A stretch of DNA of 64,000 nt, from assembly GCA_016185125.1 (NCBI GenBank), contig JACPOC010000021.1:124001-188000 (forward strand), in the 5' to 3' direction. The notes below the pieces were generated by a model, which was not told the origin of the DNA, made no database searches, and saw only the letters and a program-made list of their open reading frames with translations. A program made the position numbers and the translations under genes. Shown in pieces: positions 57,214-64,000 of the stretch. The first letter of the stretch is position 1. Each line of letters starts with the position of its first letter. This DNA comes from Bacteroidota bacterium (GTDB lineage: Bacteria > Bacteroidota > Bacteroidia > B-17B0 > Aurantibacillaceae).

Positions 57214-58323
57214 ATGCCAAAAATAATTATCATTTTATATTTTTTTCTTTCGTGTATTAAAACTAATGCTCAAGTACTTAGCGTGCTCAGCGCCACCAAT
57301 CCTGTTTGTATCGACCAAATGAACGGTTCGATTACTTTCAGTATTAACGGCACAGCTTTCCCATACACTGCTACTGTTAGTGGCATATGTATCAGTTCAA
57401 CCCCCATAATCATAAGCGGCATTACTTCAAATACCTTTACTGTAACAGGCTTGGGTAATTGCAATGCACCTTTTCCACATGCACTCAGTGGGGAGTATAT
57501 TGTTTCTTTATCTAATAACACAAACTCTGTTATAGCTTCTATAACCATATACGTGGCGGGCGTTTACTTTTTTGCTTTGGCAAGTAGCACAGCTAATATA
57601 AGCTGTTACAATGCCGCCGATGCTTACATAAATACATATTTATATGCCTACGGCAATCCGGTACCTGTTTCGCCAAGCTATTTATGGAGTACCGCAACAA
57701 ATACTAATTATGCCACCACGCCTAATATAAGCAATGTGCCACCCGGTACCTATAGCCTAACGGTTACTGATGTTAATGGATGCGTTAACAGTAATTCAGC
57801 ATCAATAACGTTTACCAATCCTACCCCGGTTGTTCTATCACATAGTCTTAATCAACCCGCAACACCCTCCTGTTGCAATGGCAATATCACTTTTTCGGCA
57901 AGCGGTGGCACTCCGGGCGGGGCATCTTCTTATACATTTTCCACCGTTCCGGCAATAGCCTCTTATACTTCGGTTTGCCAAGGTACCTACACATTAACCG
58001 CCGCCGACAATAATAATTGTAAAAATTCATACAGCCTCAGTGTAAGCTGCATTACAAGTATTAAGGAAAGTGAGTTAGAAAGCTCAGGGTTTACACTTTA
58101 CCCAAATCCAACCAACGGTCGCTTTACCATTGAGTTGAGTGATGAAAAACGCTTGCCTACCTTTATAAGCATACAAACAGCTATGGGAGAGGAAATAATA
58201 CGCCTGCCAATAGATACACCTAAAATGGATATATATGTACAAGAACTTCCACCGGGCATTTATTTTATTAAAGTGCTTAATAAAAAAGTTGCCACTCCAT
58301 CTAAAAAACTAATTATTAATTAA
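57214..58323 (+). CDS. Secreted protein with SprB-like repeat and T9SS type A domain
   Basis: This 369-residue protein has a signal peptide ending TNAQ. Two beta modules follow, one with four Cys and one SprB-like (ANISCYNAADAYINTYLYAY to PPGTYSLTVTDVNGCVNS), then a third (PSCCNGNITFSASGGTPGG). The C-terminal type A sorting domain runs from FTLYPNPTNGRFTIELS to the end. It should be exported by the T9SS and attached to the surface. It is a paralogue of the next gene and shares an 87-bp near-identical block with it. Target and ligand are unknown. Confidence 0.82.
   Translation: MPKIIIILYFFLSCIKTNAQVLSVLSATNPVCIDQMNGSITFSINGTAFPYTATVSGICISSTPIIISGITSNTFTVTGLGNCNAPFPHALSGEYIVSLSNNTNSVIASITIYVAGVYFFALASSTANISCYNAADAYINTYLYAYGNPVPVSPSYLWSTATNTNYATTPNISNVPPGTYSLTVTDVNGCVNSNSASITFTNPTPVVLSHSLNQPATPSCCNGNITFSASGGTPGGASSYTFSTVPAIASYTSVCQGTYTLTAADNNNCKNSYSLSVSCITSIKESELESSGFTLYPNPTNGRFTIELSDEKRLPTFISIQTAMGEEIIRLPIDTPKMDIYVQELPPGIYFIKVLNKKVATPSKKLIIN
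57871..57957. repeat. Near-identical 87-bp block shared with 58971-59057
   Basis: From TGTTGCAATGGCAATATCAC the two copies agree over 74 bases, differ at one (C versus T) and agree over 12 more. The genes around them are much more diverged, so the block looks recently homogenised. Confidence 0.9.
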
Positions 58324-58331
58324 AAAACGCT

Positions 58332-59420
58332 ATGAGAAAATTAATTTATTGTATAACCTTATTTTTACTGTGCAGTAAAACTTTTGCCCAGGCAATTACT
58401 TTGCTTGGCACTGCAAGTAACACCTGCACCAATGATTATAACGGCTCAGCAACTTTTAGCCTGGGCATCAATACTTATCCCTATTCGGCAGTGGTGGCGG
58501 GCATTTGTAATACGGTAAATGTAAGTGCCATAAATTCATCTACGTTTACCGTTAATAATCTGGGCACATGCATTTTCAACTCTCAACAAATTGGTCCTTA
58601 TAATCAATATACACTAACCTTAAAAGATAATGCGAATGCCATTGTAGGCAGTTTAACTTTTACAATAGGCTCCACCTACCCTTATTTTCTTTTGCAGCCC
58701 GGTTATTATAATAATATAACCTGTAATAATGCGAATAACGGCAGTACAAGTTTTGCCCCTATATATGGCACCGGCCCCTTCTCCTACCTTTGGGCAAGCT
58801 CTACTAATAGTGCTTATGCCACAACAAATTATATAAATAACGCTTCCCCCGGTTGGTATACACTCACTGCAACCGATGCTTATGGCTGTAAAATGGTGAG
58901 TGGAGTAAGTTTTTATAACCCCACGCCCGTGGTTTTAAGCTATTCTATAAACGCGCCCGGCCAACCCGGGTGTTGCAATGGCAATATCACTTTTTCGGCA
59001 AGCGGTGGCACTCCGGGCGGGGCATCTTCTTATACATTTTCCACTGTTCCGGCAATATCTTCCTATACAGCCGTTTGTCAGGGAACCTACACATTAACCG
59101 CCGCCGATAAAAATGATTGTAAAGATTGGAGCACCGTTATTATAAGTTGTGTTACGGGCATTGCCGAAAACGGAACAGAAAACTCAAGGTTGACGCTATA
59201 CCCCAACCCTAACAACGGCCAGTTCCAGCTTCAACTAAGCGAATATGAAGAGTTACCGGCTTCCATCAGCATTAAAAACATATTGGGTCAGGTTGTTTTA
59301 AATATGGATGTTACATCTAATAATACAAAGGTAGATTTAAACGATTCGCCTAAGGGAATTTATATGGCACTTATCAATTTTAAAGAATACACAATCACCA
59401 AAAAAATAATTAAAGAGTAA
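58332..59420 (+). CDS. Paralogous T9SS type A cargo protein
   Basis: This 362-residue protein has a signal peptide ending TFAQ. Module order copies that of the gene at 57214: an N-terminal Cys-containing beta module, an SprB-like module (NITCNNANNGSTSFAPIYG to SPGWYTLTATDAYGCK), a CCNGNITFSASGGTPGG module, and the sorting domain LTLYPNPNNGQFQLQLSEYE to KKIIKE. The start is 8 nt after the stop of that gene. The pair likely arose by tandem duplication with diverging N-terminal modules. Confidence 0.82.
   Translation: MRKLIYCITLFLLCSKTFAQAITLLGTASNTCTNDYNGSATFSLGINTYPYSAVVAGICNTVNVSAINSSTFTVNNLGTCIFNSQQIGPYNQYTLTLKDNANAIVGSLTFTIGSTYPYFLLQPGYYNNITCNNANNGSTSFAPIYGTGPFSYLWASSTNSAYATTNYINNASPGWYTLTATDAYGCKMVSGVSFYNPTPVVLSYSINAPGQPGCCNGNITFSASGGTPGGASSYTFSTVPAISSYTAVCQGTYTLTAADKNDCKDWSTVIISCVTGIAENGTENSRLTLYPNPNNGQFQLQLSEYEELPASISIKNILGQVVLNMDVTSNNTKVDLNDSPKGIYMALINFKEYTITKKIIKE
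58971..59057. repeat. Second copy of the 87-bp block (57871-57957)
   Basis: See the first copy. The block codes for the CCNGNITFSASGGTPGG module in both genes and is in the same frame. Confidence 0.9.
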
Positions 59421-59480
59421 ACAATAAACCCCACCCATTATCCGTTAAATAAAAATATAAACCCATAAAAATCTAATCTT
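59418..59480 (+). repeat. Second copy of the leader block (56781-56844)
   Basis: CAATAAACCCCACCC, CCGTTA and ATATAAACCCATAAAA lie in the same order as at 56781 and end a few bases before the ATG at 59481. Confidence 0.65.
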
Positions 59481-59987
59481 ATGCCTTACAGCAACCTTTC
59501 GGCAGCTATCAGCGCAAACGCTTTAGCCACCATTAAACAAAAAATTACGGACATTAACAACCTGCTTCCTTTTTTAATTAACCTTACGGAAGAAGAACGA
59601 CAAACCCTCCCTAAAATGGGCGATAAAAGCCTGAGCTTTGTGAATAAAGCCCTGCAGTATGCCGAAGCCAATGCCAGCTTGGTGCCGCCTTATATTAATA
59701 TTGTTGAATTAAAAAAAGACCTAAAGCTTACCGAAGACCTCACTTCTATTTTACAGCCTTTAAGCCAACTGCAGGAAGCCTTGGACGATACAACCATGGC
59801 TGCAGGAAGCGAGAGTTACACGGCCGCCCTTGCGTTTTACGGTTCGGTAAAGCAAGCATCCAAATTAAACATACCGGGTACGCAAACTATTTTTAATGAT
59901 CTAAAAACCCGCTTTGAAAATTCTGGAGTTTCGGGTGATGGAGGCGGAGGAAGTAGTACCAATATTAATACACCACCGTCTGCTTAA
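59481..59987 (+). CDS. Small soluble helical protein of unknown function
   Basis: This 168-residue protein has no signal peptide. It is mainly helical (LATIKQKITDINNLLPFLIN, LTEEERQTLPKMGDKSLSFV, PYINIVELKKDLKLTEDL) and ends in a flexible Gly/Ser tail (GDGGGGSSTNINTPPSA). I recall similar unnamed proteins in Bacteroidota. Its leader matches that of the chimeric gene at 56845, whose first 55 residues may come from a second family usually encoded nearby. A strong terminator follows. Function unknown. Confidence 0.75.
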   Translation: MPYSNLSAAISANALATIKQKITDINNLLPFLINLTEEERQTLPKMGDKSLSFVNKALQYAEANASLVPPYINIVELKKDLKLTEDLTSILQPLSQLQEALDDTTMAAGSESYTAALAFYGSVKQASKLNIPGTQTIFNDLKTRFENSGVSGDGGGGSSTNINTPPSA

Positions 59988-60001
59988 TTATAAAAAGAGT
60001 C

Positions 60002-60037
60002 AAAGCTTGCTGAACTTACAATCAGCAAGCTTTTTTT
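60002..60037 (+). terminator. Strong rho-independent terminator
   Basis: A perfect 12-bp stem AAAGCTTGCTGA / TCAGCAAGCTTT (60002-60013 with 60022-60033) with an 8-nt loop ends in a seven-T run. It follows the stop codon at 59987 by 15 nt. Confidence 0.95.
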
Positions 60038-60118
60038 ATGACCCTCTCGAGGCCCTCAAAAAGTCATTTTTAATTTTTCATTTAGTTACAAAATTGACAT
60101 CACATTTTATTAAAAATG

Positions 60119-60275
60119 TCTCTTTTCTTTTTGCTTGACCAAAAAGAAACAAAAGTTAAGGCAGCATAAAATTTCCCTAAACTCTTTTTTAATGTTTAAG
60201 CCGAGTCTTGGAACTCGCCCATACGGAAACATTTTGGGCTCTAACAGCCAAGCCTCCCGCACAACCTTTCTCAAA
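60119..60275. repeat. Dispersed palindromic repeat (CTTTTTGCTTGACCAAAAAG type)
   Basis: The element contains CTTTTTG-N6-CAAAAAG (60127-60146) and a second imperfect hairpin in which CTTGG and GCCC (60207-60211, 60217-60220) pair with GGGC and CCAAG (60236-60239, 60248-60252). I recall this kind of sequence as a repeat scattered in intergenic DNA of many Bacteroidota. No protein is encoded. It lies between the terminator and the 21-bp array. Confidence 0.55.
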
Positions 60276-60301
60276 GACCGGATGTAAGGCTCCGGTAATC
60301 G

Positions 60302-60658
60302 AGCTTATTAACCTCCGTTTCCAGCTTATTAACCCCCACTTCCCCGTTAAAAACACCGGCAACCTCACTTTTAGGCAGGCACTCCGGGTTATTAACCTCC
60401 CCTTCGGGGTTAAAAGGGAGGCACGCGAGGTTATTAACCCCGTTTGCCAGGTTATTAACCCCGCACGCGCAGTTAAAAGGGAGGCACGCGAGGCTTTTAA
60501 CTCCGTTTGCGAGGCTTTTAACTCCGGCTGTCAGGTTTTTTGGGGGGCGTGTCAGGTTATTAAGCCCGCGTGTCAGGTTATTAACCCCGCCATCGGAGTT
60601 TTGAAGTACCCCCCCCCACCTATATAGGTACCCCCCCCCCACCTCGGAAGTACCCCCC
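60302..60658. repeat. GC-rich 21-bp tandem array, about 17 units
   Basis: From 60302 the sequence divides into consecutive 21-bp units with no length error through 60658. Typical units are AGGTTATTAACCCCGTTTGC and AGGCTTTTAACTCCGTTTGC (first 20 bases). The core GGTTATTAACC is palindromic. Units occur in at least three types: GTTATTAAC, CTTTTAAC and GTTAAAAGGGAGG. The last three units contain C-runs. The period is a multiple of three and both strands stay open (a minus-strand reading gives GVNNLAN-type heptads), but neither frame shows other signs of a gene. The array is far more GC-rich than its surroundings. Confidence 0.85.
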
Positions 60659-60736
60659 CCCGGCTTCATAAATGTTAAATTTGTTAAAGAGTTTTAAAGT
60701 TCGGGTCAGATAAAAGCAAATACATTCATTAGCCCG

Positions 60737-61144
60737 CTACTTCTCCCCCATTTGTATTTTTTCACGAACTTGGTCAGGTATGTTTACTTTGGTATGAAGT
60801 TCGTAATCATAAATAACAAGCACATCGGTTGCTTCCGCTGAAATTTGGTTATTCTGATCCAGTATCAAATGATTTAACTGCAGGCTGGTGTTTTTTATCC
60901 ACTCCACTTTTGTTTTTACAAGAATAGTTCCCGGATAAAATAAAGGTTTTTTAAACCTACAAGAGCTGGCGGCTACGGCAAAGCTTAATTTATCGTGTGC
61001 ATTGTAGGTATTAATGCCTATTAATTGGCAATAATTTACCCGTGCCGCCTGAATGTATTTAAAATAAGCTACATTATTAATATGGCCGAAGAGATCCATT
61101 TCGCTCCAGTCTAATTGTATTTTTAATTCGGTAGTGTGCTCCAT
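60737..61144 (-). CDS. 4-hydroxybenzoyl-CoA thioesterase-like acyl-CoA thioesterase
   Basis: This 135-residue hot-dog-fold thioesterase hydrolyses an acyl-CoA or acyl-ACP. The motif WSEMDLFGHINNVAYFKYIQ carries the catalytic Asp of the 4HBT/YbgC group, followed by a central helix. ATG at 61144 (MEHTTELKIQ) starts 1 nt after the gltX stop and is preferred to 61171, which overlaps gltX. It is likely co-transcribed with gltX. Substrate unknown. Confidence 0.88.
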   Translation of the reverse strand: MEHTTELKIQLDWSEMDLFGHINNVAYFKYIQAARVNYCQLIGINTYNAHDKLSFAVAASSCRFKKPLFYPGTILVKTKVEWIKNTSLQLNHLILDQNNQISAEATDVLVIYDYELHTKVNIPDQVREKIQMGEK

Positions 61145-61145
61145 T

Positions 61146-62660
61146 TTATAATTTGGAAAGCGCCGTTTCAATCCTGTTTAATGTTTCTGATTTTCCAATA
61201 AGGGCGAGCATATCAAATAACTGCGGGCCCCCGGCAACACCGGTTACCAAAACTCTAAGCAACTGCATATCAATTTTACCAAGTTCCGCTTCGGCCTCAT
61301 GAAAACTGGTGGTAATAGTTTCTACCTTCCACTCCTTTACTGTTTTAAATTTGGCGTAAACAGAAGTAAAAAGTGTTTTACTCTCCGGCTTCCATTTTTT
61401 TGCCATTACTTTTTCATCGTAAAGCGTTGGCGATTCAAAAACATATTTTCCCTGCTCCCAAAATTCATGCACAAACTGAACTTTTTCTTTTACCAGTTTG
61501 CAGAATGAAACTACAAATTCATTATCGCGATTATATCCTTTTTCCTGTAACACCGGTTTAAAATAATCGGCCAATTCCTGATCGGTTTTTTTACGCAAGT
61601 ATTGCTGATTAAACCATTTTGCTTTTTCAGGATCGAATTTAGCGCCGCTTTTATGCACGCGTTCAAAATCGAATAACTTTGCAAGTTCGGCTACCGAAAA
61701 TATTTCTTCATTGGTGCCGGGGTTCCAACCTAAAAGCGCAAGAATATTAATAAACGCTTCAGGATAATAACCGGCCTCTTTATAACCAATGTAGGGCGCT
61801 GTTTCCCGGGGATCTTGCCAGCTTAATGGAAATACCGGGAACCTTGCTTCACGCTTTGAAATTTTACCGTTTCCATCAGGATTTAAAATTAAAGGAAGAT
61901 GAGCCAGCTTGGGCATTTGGTCTTCCAATCCTAAATAACGGTATATTAAAATATGGGCCGGAGCGCTTGGCAGCCACTCTTCTCCCCTTACCGCATGCGA
62001 AATTTCCATTTCAATATCATCCACAATATGCGCTAAATGATAGGTAGGCATGCCATCGCTTTTTAAAAGCACTTTATCATCCACCTGAGAAGAATTAACA
62101 GTAACCCATCCGCGAATAATATCGTTGAAACGAATTTCTTCATTGCGCGGAACCTTTAAACGCACCACATGTTTGGTTTTGCTTTCTACTAAATTTTTCA
62201 CTTCATCTTCTGCCAAAGTAAGCGAATTGCGCATATTTTGCCTGGTAACAGCGTTATATTGCGGGGCTGCTACTTTGGCCGCTTCTAATCGCTTTCGCAT
62301 CGCATCCAGTTCTTCTTCGGTATCAAAAGCGTAATAAGCATGCCCCGAAGCAACCAGTTTATCGGCATACTTTTGATAAATACCCAATTCCTTCCTTTCA
62401 CTTTGTCGGTAAGGTTGATGAATACCGTTGCCAAAACCTACCCCTTCATTGGGCTCAATGCCGCACCATTTTAAAGCGGCCACAATATATTCTTCGGCTC
62501 CTTTTACAAAACGATTTTGATCCGTATCTTCTATTCTTAAAATAAAATCGCCGCCATGTTTTTTAGCAAATAAATAATTAAATAACGCCGTTCTTACTCC
62601 GCCCATGTGCAAACCACCTGTGGGACTAGGGGCAAAACGTACCCGAACTCTTTTTTCCAT
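61146..62660 (-). CDS. gltX: Glutamyl-tRNA synthetase
   Basis: GltX charges tRNA-Glu with glutamate. The 504-residue protein has the class I signature FAPSPTGGLHMGGVRTALF near residue 9 (HIGH-type HMGG) and the KISKREA loop (KMSKS-type) near 260. Residues after 370 form the helical anticodon-binding domain. ATG at 62660 (MEKRVRVRFAPSP) is preferred: the upstream TTG at 62669 lies inside the -7 box TATCTTTG. The thioesterase gene follows immediately. Confidence 0.97.
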   Translation of the reverse strand: MEKRVRVRFAPSPTGGLHMGGVRTALFNYLFAKKHGGDFILRIEDTDQNRFVKGAEEYIVAALKWCGIEPNEGVGFGNGIHQPYRQSERKELGIYQKYADKLVASGHAYYAFDTEEELDAMRKRLEAAKVAAPQYNAVTRQNMRNSLTLAEDEVKNLVESKTKHVVRLKVPRNEEIRFNDIIRGWVTVNSSQVDDKVLLKSDGMPTYHLAHIVDDIEMEISHAVRGEEWLPSAPAHILIYRYLGLEDQMPKLAHLPLILNPDGNGKISKREARFPVFPLSWQDPRETAPYIGYKEAGYYPEAFINILALLGWNPGTNEEIFSVAELAKLFDFERVHKSGAKFDPEKAKWFNQQYLRKKTDQELADYFKPVLQEKGYNRDNEFVVSFCKLVKEKVQFVHEFWEQGKYVFESPTLYDEKVMAKKWKPESKTLFTSVYAKFKTVKEWKVETITTSFHEAEAELGKIDMQLLRVLVTGVAGGPQLFDMLALIGKSETLNRIETALSKL

Positions 62661-62666
62661 AGGTGG

Positions 62667-62674
62667 CAAAGATA
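62667..62674 (-). promoter_or_regulatory. -7 box 6 nt before the gltX start
   Basis: On the minus strand TATCTTTG matches TAnnTTTG exactly and ends 6 nt before the ATG at 62660. It rules out the TTG at 62669 as the start. Confidence 0.55.
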
Positions 62675-62756
62675 ATGTTATTTGTTGTTTTAATGAAGCA
62701 AATATCTTAGCTTAGTAAAAAGATGCAGGTTATTGTTTACCATACAAAAAAAATTT

Positions 62757-63719
62757 ATGAAAAATAAAAACGCGGAATTTATTGAAGTTTATTTAAACGA
62801 GCTTGAAACGCTATTCAAAAAAAGCAAGAACGAGCAAAACCCTGCCTATTGGCTTTACACGAACAATGTAAGAACGCCATTGTTTATGCTGGAATCCATT
62901 ACCCGTATTTTTGCAAAAACAACTAACGACCCCTTTGCTAAAACCTGGAACAAATTTTTTAAAAAATTGGAAGATGCTATTGGAGAAATAGATTATTACG
63001 ACGCCTTGATTAAAGAGTTTAAACCTAAAAGATCGGTTAAAAAAGAACAGATAGATTATTTTACAAAAAAGCGCGACAAGACCCTTACCAAGCTAAACGA
63101 AAAATTAATTAATAGAAATTTCTATACTTCGTTTCTTCTGCAATTCCGGGAAGGGAATATTATGAATTTTTCAGATAAGACGGTGCTTAAAAACATTCAT
63201 GATCAAATTAAAACAGAAATACTTTTAACCGAAGAATTTTTTATAGATCATATAAATGGTTTCAAAGATTTTGAGGAAGGCGTTCATACAATGAGAAGAA
63301 AACTGAGATGGATAAGCATTTATGGTATTAGCCTGGGCGGAATAGTTATTTTAAAAAAGAACAGAAAAAATTATGAATGGGAAAAAGAGTTTATTACCAA
63401 AACTGAATTAAATTCGAAATACAATAAATTACCTGTAAAAAAAGGATTGAATTACTACATACCTTTTAATGAAAAAGCTTTTTTAGCCTTAAGCCATGTT
63501 ATAGATCAATTAGGAATTATAAAAGATAAAGGCTTAAGCATAGAAGCATTGGCAAAATCGCGGGAAAAAACGGGTGCGGCTATAAAACCAAATAAGCCTG
63601 TAAATACTAGTATTGCCGGCGAATTAAAAATAAAAGAAGCTCTTTTAAAACAAGCTCACGAGTTGGTTTATAAATTTTTTATTACCTATAAAATTCATAA
63701 TGAACTTTTAAAAGCATAA
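62757..63719 (+). CDS. Possible CHAD-like helical protein
   Basis: This 320-residue protein is almost entirely helical and basic. The segment EEGVHTMRRKLRWISIYG near residue 175 resembles the His/Arg motif of CHAD domains, which bind polyphosphate; the rest is too diverged for me to be sure. ATG at 62757 (MKNKNAEFIEVYLNELE) is preferred to the TTG at 62733. It lies 89 nt upstream of a response regulator gene in the same direction. No signal peptide or membrane segment is visible. An unrelated helical family is the alternative. Confidence 0.65.
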   Translation: MKNKNAEFIEVYLNELETLFKKSKNEQNPAYWLYTNNVRTPLFMLESITRIFAKTTNDPFAKTWNKFFKKLEDAIGEIDYYDALIKEFKPKRSVKKEQIDYFTKKRDKTLTKLNEKLINRNFYTSFLLQFREGNIMNFSDKTVLKNIHDQIKTEILLTEEFFIDHINGFKDFEEGVHTMRRKLRWISIYGISLGGIVILKKNRKNYEWEKEFITKTELNSKYNKLPVKKGLNYYIPFNEKAFLALSHVIDQLGIIKDKGLSIEALAKSREKTGAAIKPNKPVNTSIAGELKIKEALLKQAHELVYKFFITYKIHNELLKA

Positions 63720-63808
63720 CCATCTTTTCACCAACAAAAAACCAATTTTTGATAATTGCATAATTTTTACTAACATTATATTATTAGCTTAAACAAAAAC
63801 ATTTAATC

Positions 63809-64000
63809 ATGAAAAAATACCGTGCAGTTATAATAGATGACGAAGAAGACAGCCGAAGCAATACGAGAAATATGCTTCAGAATTACTGTCCCGAAATTGA
63901 AATAGCCGGAGAAGCGGCCAGCGGCCCCGATGGTAAATTAAAAATACAGGAGCTAAAGCCTCATGTTGTTTTTTTAGATATTAATATGCCCGGAATGAAT
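63809..64000 (+). CDS. Response regulator, 3' end outside window
   Basis: The first 64 residues of a receiver domain are visible: MKKYRAVIIDDEEDSRSNTR, with the acidic pair Asp10-Asp11 and the phospho-acceptor Asp57 in VVFLDINMPGMN. The start (KYRAVIIDDEEDSR) is typical of LytTR-type regulators of Bacteroidota, but the output domain is beyond the window. It would act with a sensor histidine kinase that is not visible here. Confidence 0.9.
   Translation, partial: MKKYRAVIIDDEEDSRSNTRNMLQNYCPEIEIAGEAASGPDGKLKIQELKPHVVFLDINMPGMN

Follow-up and report, generated by a model that had tools for sequence, protein, structure and literature searches.

A 21-bp tandem array of constant period and variable sequence in a Bacteroidota genome, and the two-fold symmetry of such arrays

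What kind of element is the tandem array with a 21-bp phase at 60302-60658 of the window (the whole stretch of DNA analysed, 64,000 nucleotides, G000:C5:124001-188000, from a genome of 3.34 Mb in 59 contigs), and at what level would its period be kept constant? The array is real and well beyond chance, as its best lags are 63 (identity 0.61) and 21 (0.571), followed by 84 and 42, and 5000 mononucleotide shuffles reached a mean of 0.25 and a maximum of 0.352 at lag 21. An earlier note on this DNA had counted 17 units of exactly 21 bp. The exact period in fact holds for only 14-15 units; the last ones advance by 22 bp (44 bp for two GAAGTACCCCCCCCCACCT units). The discrete unit types proposed there are borne out by a count by eye over the 14 core units, with GNTTATTAA[CG]C in seven, GGCTTTTAAC in two, GTTAAAAGGGAGG in two and three poorer units that start at 60345, 60366 and 60534. 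The last type was rightly read as nearly an inverted copy of the second, which fits the dyad symmetry of the array as a whole, whereas the core GGTTATTAACC, described as its own reverse complement, is an odd-length palindrome (GGTTA-t-TAACC) whose central base breaks self-complementarity. The contrast in composition with the surroundings was also correctly seen, with a G+C content of 0.546 in the array and of 0.365 and 0.32 in the flanks.

Table 1 Features of the array and its neighbourhood (positions in the window).
Feature	Position	Strand	Description
Upstream neighbour gene	59481..59987	+	168 aa; without a Pfam match (E<=0.01)
Terminator-like hairpin (both strands), after upstream gene	60002..60033	+	Consensus match only
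Dispersed repeat	60121..60283	.	~163 bp; copies on contigs C16 and C34, 87-88%
Open frame with GVNNLAN-like heptads	60271..60669	-	132 aa; judged a by-product
Core array	60303..60596	.	14 abutting units, each exactly 21 bp; odd palindromic core GGTTATTAACC; CTTTTAAC; inverted GTTAAAAG; dyad-symmetric as a whole
Array tail	60597..60661 (end approximate)	.	Units GAAGTACCCCCCCCCACCT(ATATAGGT), 22-bp step, C runs 9-10
3' flank	60662..60700	.	Contains TGTTAAATTTGTTAAA(G/T)AGTT; also in C22 copy
Downstream neighbour	60737..61171	-	4HBT thioesterase-like gene, convergent

The array sits between two genes that both point at it. The hairpin behind the upstream gene resembles a terminator and, judged from its consensus, would keep the array out of the transcript of that gene; two such hairpins were found and 1.6 were expected in shuffles. 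As had been noticed, a dispersed repeat precedes the array and ends about 20 bp upstream of it. The window copy of this repeat breaks off just short of the array, at a point past which the copies on C16 and C34 run on, and no array stood beside those two in the DNA read; the repeat is probably a separate element. No Rfam family matched at E<=1 over 58000-64000. Farther upstream, at 57214-59420, lie two adjacent and visibly similar predicted secreted proteins, the second of which (the one scanned) carries Por_Secre_tail (PF18962). A homologue of the thioesterase is present in 23 of 40 genomes of the genus, the own genome included, and the 22 homologous loci in the other genomes had no detected tandem array in the fetched DNA (up to 1.5 kb on each side), a comparison that took in the genomes with a thioesterase match and left out the 17 without one.

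One suggestion for the array was the coding sequence of a heptad-repeat protein, with GVNNLAN units on the minus strand. A minus frame is open for 132 aa, and the same frame (GVNNL/GVKSL) is open across the repeats of the window array and of its diverged copy on contig C22 alike. These two arrays differ by 17 substitutions over 177 bp, and the best of the six frames, on the plus strand, has a borderline synonymous excess (9 observed, 5.4 expected, P=0.05, six frames tested). The proposed minus frame itself has no such excess, with 7 of the 17 changes synonymous and 5.2 expected (P=0.24), and no sign of purifying selection, a comparison of low power with 17 changes. The C22 copy also keeps neither the start codon nor the poly-C frame, the heptad frame has no Pfam match, and each of the six frames is interrupted by stops in the array on contig C42 of this genome. 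Open frames are about as frequent as expected: three of the six are open across the 14 units of the window array, 70% of its column-permuted versions also keep one, and 78 of 96 sampled arrays contain one, compared with 71.9 +- 3.5 under column permutation. The 132-aa frame is judged a by-product of a 21-bp period free of stops; a heptad-repeat protein was rejected as the explanation and is, in our estimate, very improbable.

By BLASTN a single one of the 87 family genomes, its own, has the window array (the order-level set consists of the same 87 genomes), and nothing in the phage, plasmid or E. coli collections matched it; an origin from a phage or plasmid was rejected on the lack of a BLASTN match. 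The second copy, on C22, is diverged and shares the 3' units, the poly-C tail and a flank of about 40 bp at 88%; the flank word TGTTAAATTTGTTAAA(G/T)AGTT has two exact places in the genome and one with two mismatches. What recurs beyond these two copies is the period and not the sequence. Three TTAAC words at 21-bp spacing were found in 20 of the 87 family genomes, compared with 3, each with a single match, at 22-bp spacing, and this pattern led to further 21-bp arrays, differing in sequence, on contigs C32 and C42 of the own genome and in relatives. The own genome holds, besides the related pair in the window and on C22, the arrays on C32 and C42, one at L118, two at L123 and one at L124. As to a short signal common to most arrays of a genome, another trait of the published constant-size repeats, TTAAC-like words occur in several of them, partly owing to the search pattern, and L124 also has GGCTTTTAAC; the L123 units and most of the L118 units differ. 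At L118 (13878-14361), 23 units of 21 bp are arranged in a higher-order repeat of nine units, 189 bp, like a eukaryotic satellite; part of it scores as an open frame. Another long intergenic array of this genome, at L173 6318-7079 (C42, ~26.3-27.1 kb), has a 20/60-bp period and a unit near TCCGTCACGATTTAGATTGT and is not of the 21-bp kind.

A census free of any search pattern, over 1.70 Mb from eight genomes, assigned periods of 21, 42 or 84 to 29 of 46 intergenic tandem regions. They comprised 3 of 9 in the own genome, to which L118 would add a further one, 8 of 10 in G060, 5 of 9 in G207, 11 of 12 in G317, 1 of 2 in G315 and 1 of 1 in G058, and none in G003 (0 of 2) and G004 (0 of 1), where the detector reported repeats of 2-3 copies only and no 21-bp array. 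In a further 278 kb, mainly of G317, 48 of 55 tandem regions had a period of 21 or 42 (16 of 20 among the intergenic ones). Among the longer periods, multiples of 21 are frequent (42, 63, 84 and 189, the last being 9 x 21). The sampled stretches were not random, being contigs of known length, contig starts and genomes chosen for having arrays, and the regions counted within open reading frames in both censuses include open frames created by the arrays themselves. Genome G317 (L240-L245, L251-L264) is extreme, with 69 tested 21-bp arrays in about 323 kb, which by simple extrapolation would amount to several hundred.

Across the class, four TTAAC words at 21 bp were found in 18 of 396 genomes, a single-word probe that under-counts arrays of other sequence. 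Inspection by eye of the places listed for these 18 genomes gave 11 true 21-bp arrays in seven families, the own included, and seven arrays of TTAACCA-like heptamers, so that 21-bp arrays of unrelated sequence recur in the own genome, in its relatives and in six other families. The heptamer arrays (G111, G300, G368, G406, G455, G425 and G203, at L205, L208-L211, L213 and L218) are possibly related to published TAACTGA repeats. In a collection of genome contigs a scan gave two matches, one from Nostoc and one from Treponema, both of them 21-bp arrays; these (L086 7182-7431 and L087 1-823, the latter with 39 units) belong to other phyla and have units that resemble GAGTTAAAAG or GAGCTATTAACTC. 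Among viral contigs, GTTATTAAC occurring twice at 21 bp gave 57 matches in 54 stretches, of which 6 (in 5 stretches) had a 21-bp-like surrounding and only L033 a clear array; the remaining matches look like chance. With respect to genes, based on simple ORF calls in five genomes from which array-dominated ORFs were removed, tandem spacers held an array in 18 of 279 cases, convergent ones in 9 of 73 and divergent ones in 9 of 129 (convergent versus rest, p 0.09), and 4 of 50 sampled arrays lay inside called genes.

Besides length, many of the arrays have a symmetry in common. Complementarity was measured about every possible centre and the best phase compared with the same array after permutation of its 21 columns; mirror symmetry, measured identically, was added as a control because arrays of other periods also scored in the column-permutation test. 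A dyad at p<0.05 was present in 22 of 49 arrays of a first sample (48 detected arrays and L118 entered by hand, its short detection being dropped) and in 20 of 47 of a hold-out that came mostly from G317 and lost one of its 48 regions for having fewer than four units. The mirror control reached the same threshold in 3 of 49 and 1 of 47, and the null is therefore calibrated. In paired tests dyad exceeded mirror symmetry with p = 1.5e-6 in the first sample and 3e-4 in the hold-out. Arrays are thus reverse-complement symmetric more often than chance, the window array included, with most of the evidence coming from one genome: G317 contributes 31 of 69 and the other five genomes together 10 of 27. 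Over half of the arrays have no significant dyad (27 of 49 and 27 of 47).

In the window array the dyad has z 3.9-4.1 and p 0.003-0.007 at every range tried, compared with a mirror z of 0.15. Complementarity is 0.514 at the dyad phase, 0.491 at 10.5 bp away and at most 0.342 elsewhere, and the second phase is expected because in a sequence of 21-bp period the first implies it. Three of the eight arrays tested in the own genome are significant, namely the window array, the C22 copy and L118, the latter two only with pairs up to 15-31 bp from the centre and not at 8 bp; the other five (C32, C42, the two at L123, and L124) fall short of significance. A significant dyad is likewise missing from the arrays of Nostoc (p 0.47) and Treponema (p 0.055). 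Arrays of other periods also show a dyad, if a weaker one (12 of 34 at p<0.05, one at p<0.01), and a dyad may therefore be common to tandem arrays in general.

Among 16 arrays with alternating dissimilar units, a second dyad centre lies within 1 bp of a 21-bp distance from the first in seven, where about 10% would be expected (binomial p 4e-4). A phase test on unit pairs failed in the first sample, where 1 pair in 19 agreed to within 1 bp, and succeeded only in the hold-out (13 of 28). The ranks for compensatory change at paired dyad positions are ambiguous (mean 0.517 +- 0.039 for 54 arrays, with 11 ranks >=0.95 and 6 <=0.05; one-sided KS p 0.04): a signal obtained with the centre picked on the same data was rejected as partly selection, and the ambiguous result is the one with the centre taken from column frequencies. 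Mismatches at dyad pairs are equally often G-T (76) and A-C (77), a count that is blind to strand and thus weak; in this test the eight innermost pairs chose the centre, and the fall of complementarity beyond them arises partly by construction.

The period is constant over unrelated sequences, the position is mostly intergenic, the arrays are not conserved between species and two-fold symmetry is commoner than chance. Because the helical repeat and the dyad are kept, and not sequence, frame or strand, the constraint would act on double-stranded DNA. The unit would keep a length of 21 bp, equal to two turns of B-DNA, under a drifting sequence, and new units may arise by local duplication of one or several units per event. 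Our overall leaning is to a DNA-level platform or ruler built on two helical turns and two-fold symmetry, with a putative function. The description of the arrays as mostly intergenic, non-coding satellites locked at 21 bp, with a protein platform as the candidate and likeliest role, is one on which we are evenly divided. The platform role itself we put forward tentatively and at somewhat below even: the arrays may present two-fold sites on one face of the helix to a sequence-tolerant, dimeric or oligomeric protein of nucleoid type. Of the protein-binding array suggested earlier, binding at the DNA level is compatible with the two-fold symmetry, but a single sequence-specific protein is unlikely because the sequence differs from array to array. 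More speculatively still, chromosomes in several families of the class may carry tens to hundreds of lattices of phased dyads in which the geometry and not the sequence is inherited; an architectural protein tolerant of sequence would read this geometry, or a replication or repair machine that measures by two helical turns would write it.

The same geometry could alternatively come about without any function, if a replication or repair step duplicates DNA in 21-bp quanta and preferentially at palindromes, whether by hairpin-promoted slippage or through a complex with a two-turn footprint. Such a mutational ruler, which we consider possible but on the unlikely side, would agree with higher-order units in multiples of 21, with dyads in arrays of other periods, with species-specific arrays missing from homologous loci and with the lack of a clear coding or orientation constraint. 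The seven of 16 arrays in which dyad centres stand 21 bp apart despite dissimilar neighbouring units argue against it, and because the spacing holds there slippage alone is insufficient; nor is any slippage process known to us that would yield a set length of 21 bp.

An action at the RNA level appears improbable. Transcribed hairpins every 21 nt could serve as a small-RNA sponge, as a protein-binding RNA or as protection of a 3' end, and the minus-strand RNA of the window array folds better than shuffles (z -3.67, compared with -2.06 for the plus strand); 52-nt repeats are transcribed in Bacillus coagulans according to the available parts of PMC8625621 and PMC8161180. A series of hairpins would, however, have no need of an exact 21-nt step, nine arrays lie between divergent genes, the preference for 3' positions is not significant, and the equal numbers of G-T and A-C mismatches, weak as a strand-blind count is, point the same way. 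Less probable again is a minisatellite core of a mobile element, similar to the Porphyromonas MITE BrickBuilt. The two diverged copies with their common 3' part of the array, poly-C tail and flank would suit such an element, as would the dispersed repeat upstream, but that repeat exists without an array, no common 5' leader or terminal inverted repeats were noticed framing the window and C22 copies, and most other arrays are unrelated in sequence.

The available text of PMC8161180 gives, for published repeats of constant size, no structural rule beyond length and short signals. Dyad symmetry as a second rule, obtained with a mirror control and a hold-out (mostly G317), would narrow the candidates to mechanisms that sense DNA geometry, and G317, with its dense arrays, is a genome suited to testing function and origin.

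Subirana and Messeguer reportedly described, in 2020, tandem repeats whose sequence varies at a constant size of 20-21 nt. As far as the available text of their 2021 paper goes (PMC8161180), repeats that vary in sequence but keep a size of 20-21 or 52 nt occur in many bacterial groups, are generally non-coding and species-specific, and have a function that is left unexplained; the authors point out that 20-21 nt make two helical turns and propose a part for nucleoid proteins or for RNA. The same part of that text has no words starting with palindrom-, hairpin-, Bacteroid- or symmetr-, and the available part of their general survey (PMC6749651) gives 21 nt no special place. In the literature searched, which took in few subscription papers, no account of dyad arrays with a 21-bp period from Bacteroidota came to light.

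The window array is very probably a member of this constant-size class. Its repeat length is 21 bp, with 22 bp only in the poly-C tail, its genome holds several differing arrays, the coding tests on it and the few sampled arrays inside called genes agree with a generally non-coding nature, and its sequence is species-specific in the family genomes and in the phage, plasmid and E. coli collections. As far as the published description (PMC8161180) was available, a 20-21-nt period, unrelated sequences, a generally non-coding character, species specificity, several arrays per genome and occurrence in many bacterial groups are common to both, whereas the arrays studied here nearly always have a period of 21, their hosts belong to the window's own class (one of Bacteroidota, judging from its T9SS sorting domain) and a dyad symmetry is documented, a property that the published members may have too. 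The earlier expectation of something undescribed holds in part, since a class of constant length and variable sequence is already published (PMC8161180, available text).

Other repeat families are more distant. BrickBuilt of Porphyromonas gingivalis, according to the available part of PMC4596501, is likewise a tandem minisatellite of Bacteroidota with possible dyad stem-loops, but its unit is 23 nt long, has a single sequence and lies within an element that has a leader, a tail and ends in inverted repeats, whereas the window unit is 21 bp and variable and no framing inverted repeats were among those listed. The TAACTGA heptamer repeats (PMC4679880, as far as available) are mostly intergenic direct repeats of some Bacteroidetes and Cyanobacteria, and 3 x 7 is 21; their unit is, however, 7 bp of one sequence, and lags 7 and 14 are not among the best of the window array. 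REP/BIME palindromes (PMC3733652, as far as available) resemble the arrays in being short, extragenic and present in many copies, and differ in having a common sequence and end tags. Y1_Tnp (PF01797) had no match in the own genome, which does not fit a REP/BIME with RAYT. REPs are tied to Y1 transposases, and PF01797 matched in 10 of 13 array-rich genomes and in 9 of 14 array-poor ones (sorted by the class-wide scan for four TTAAC words); a Y1 transposase or REP origin was rejected on this lack of association. Judged on their layout, the abutting window units also lack the spacers of a CRISPR. The repeat kind itself is known and unexplained, and what the analysis adds is its host range within this class of bacteria together with the dyad symmetry.
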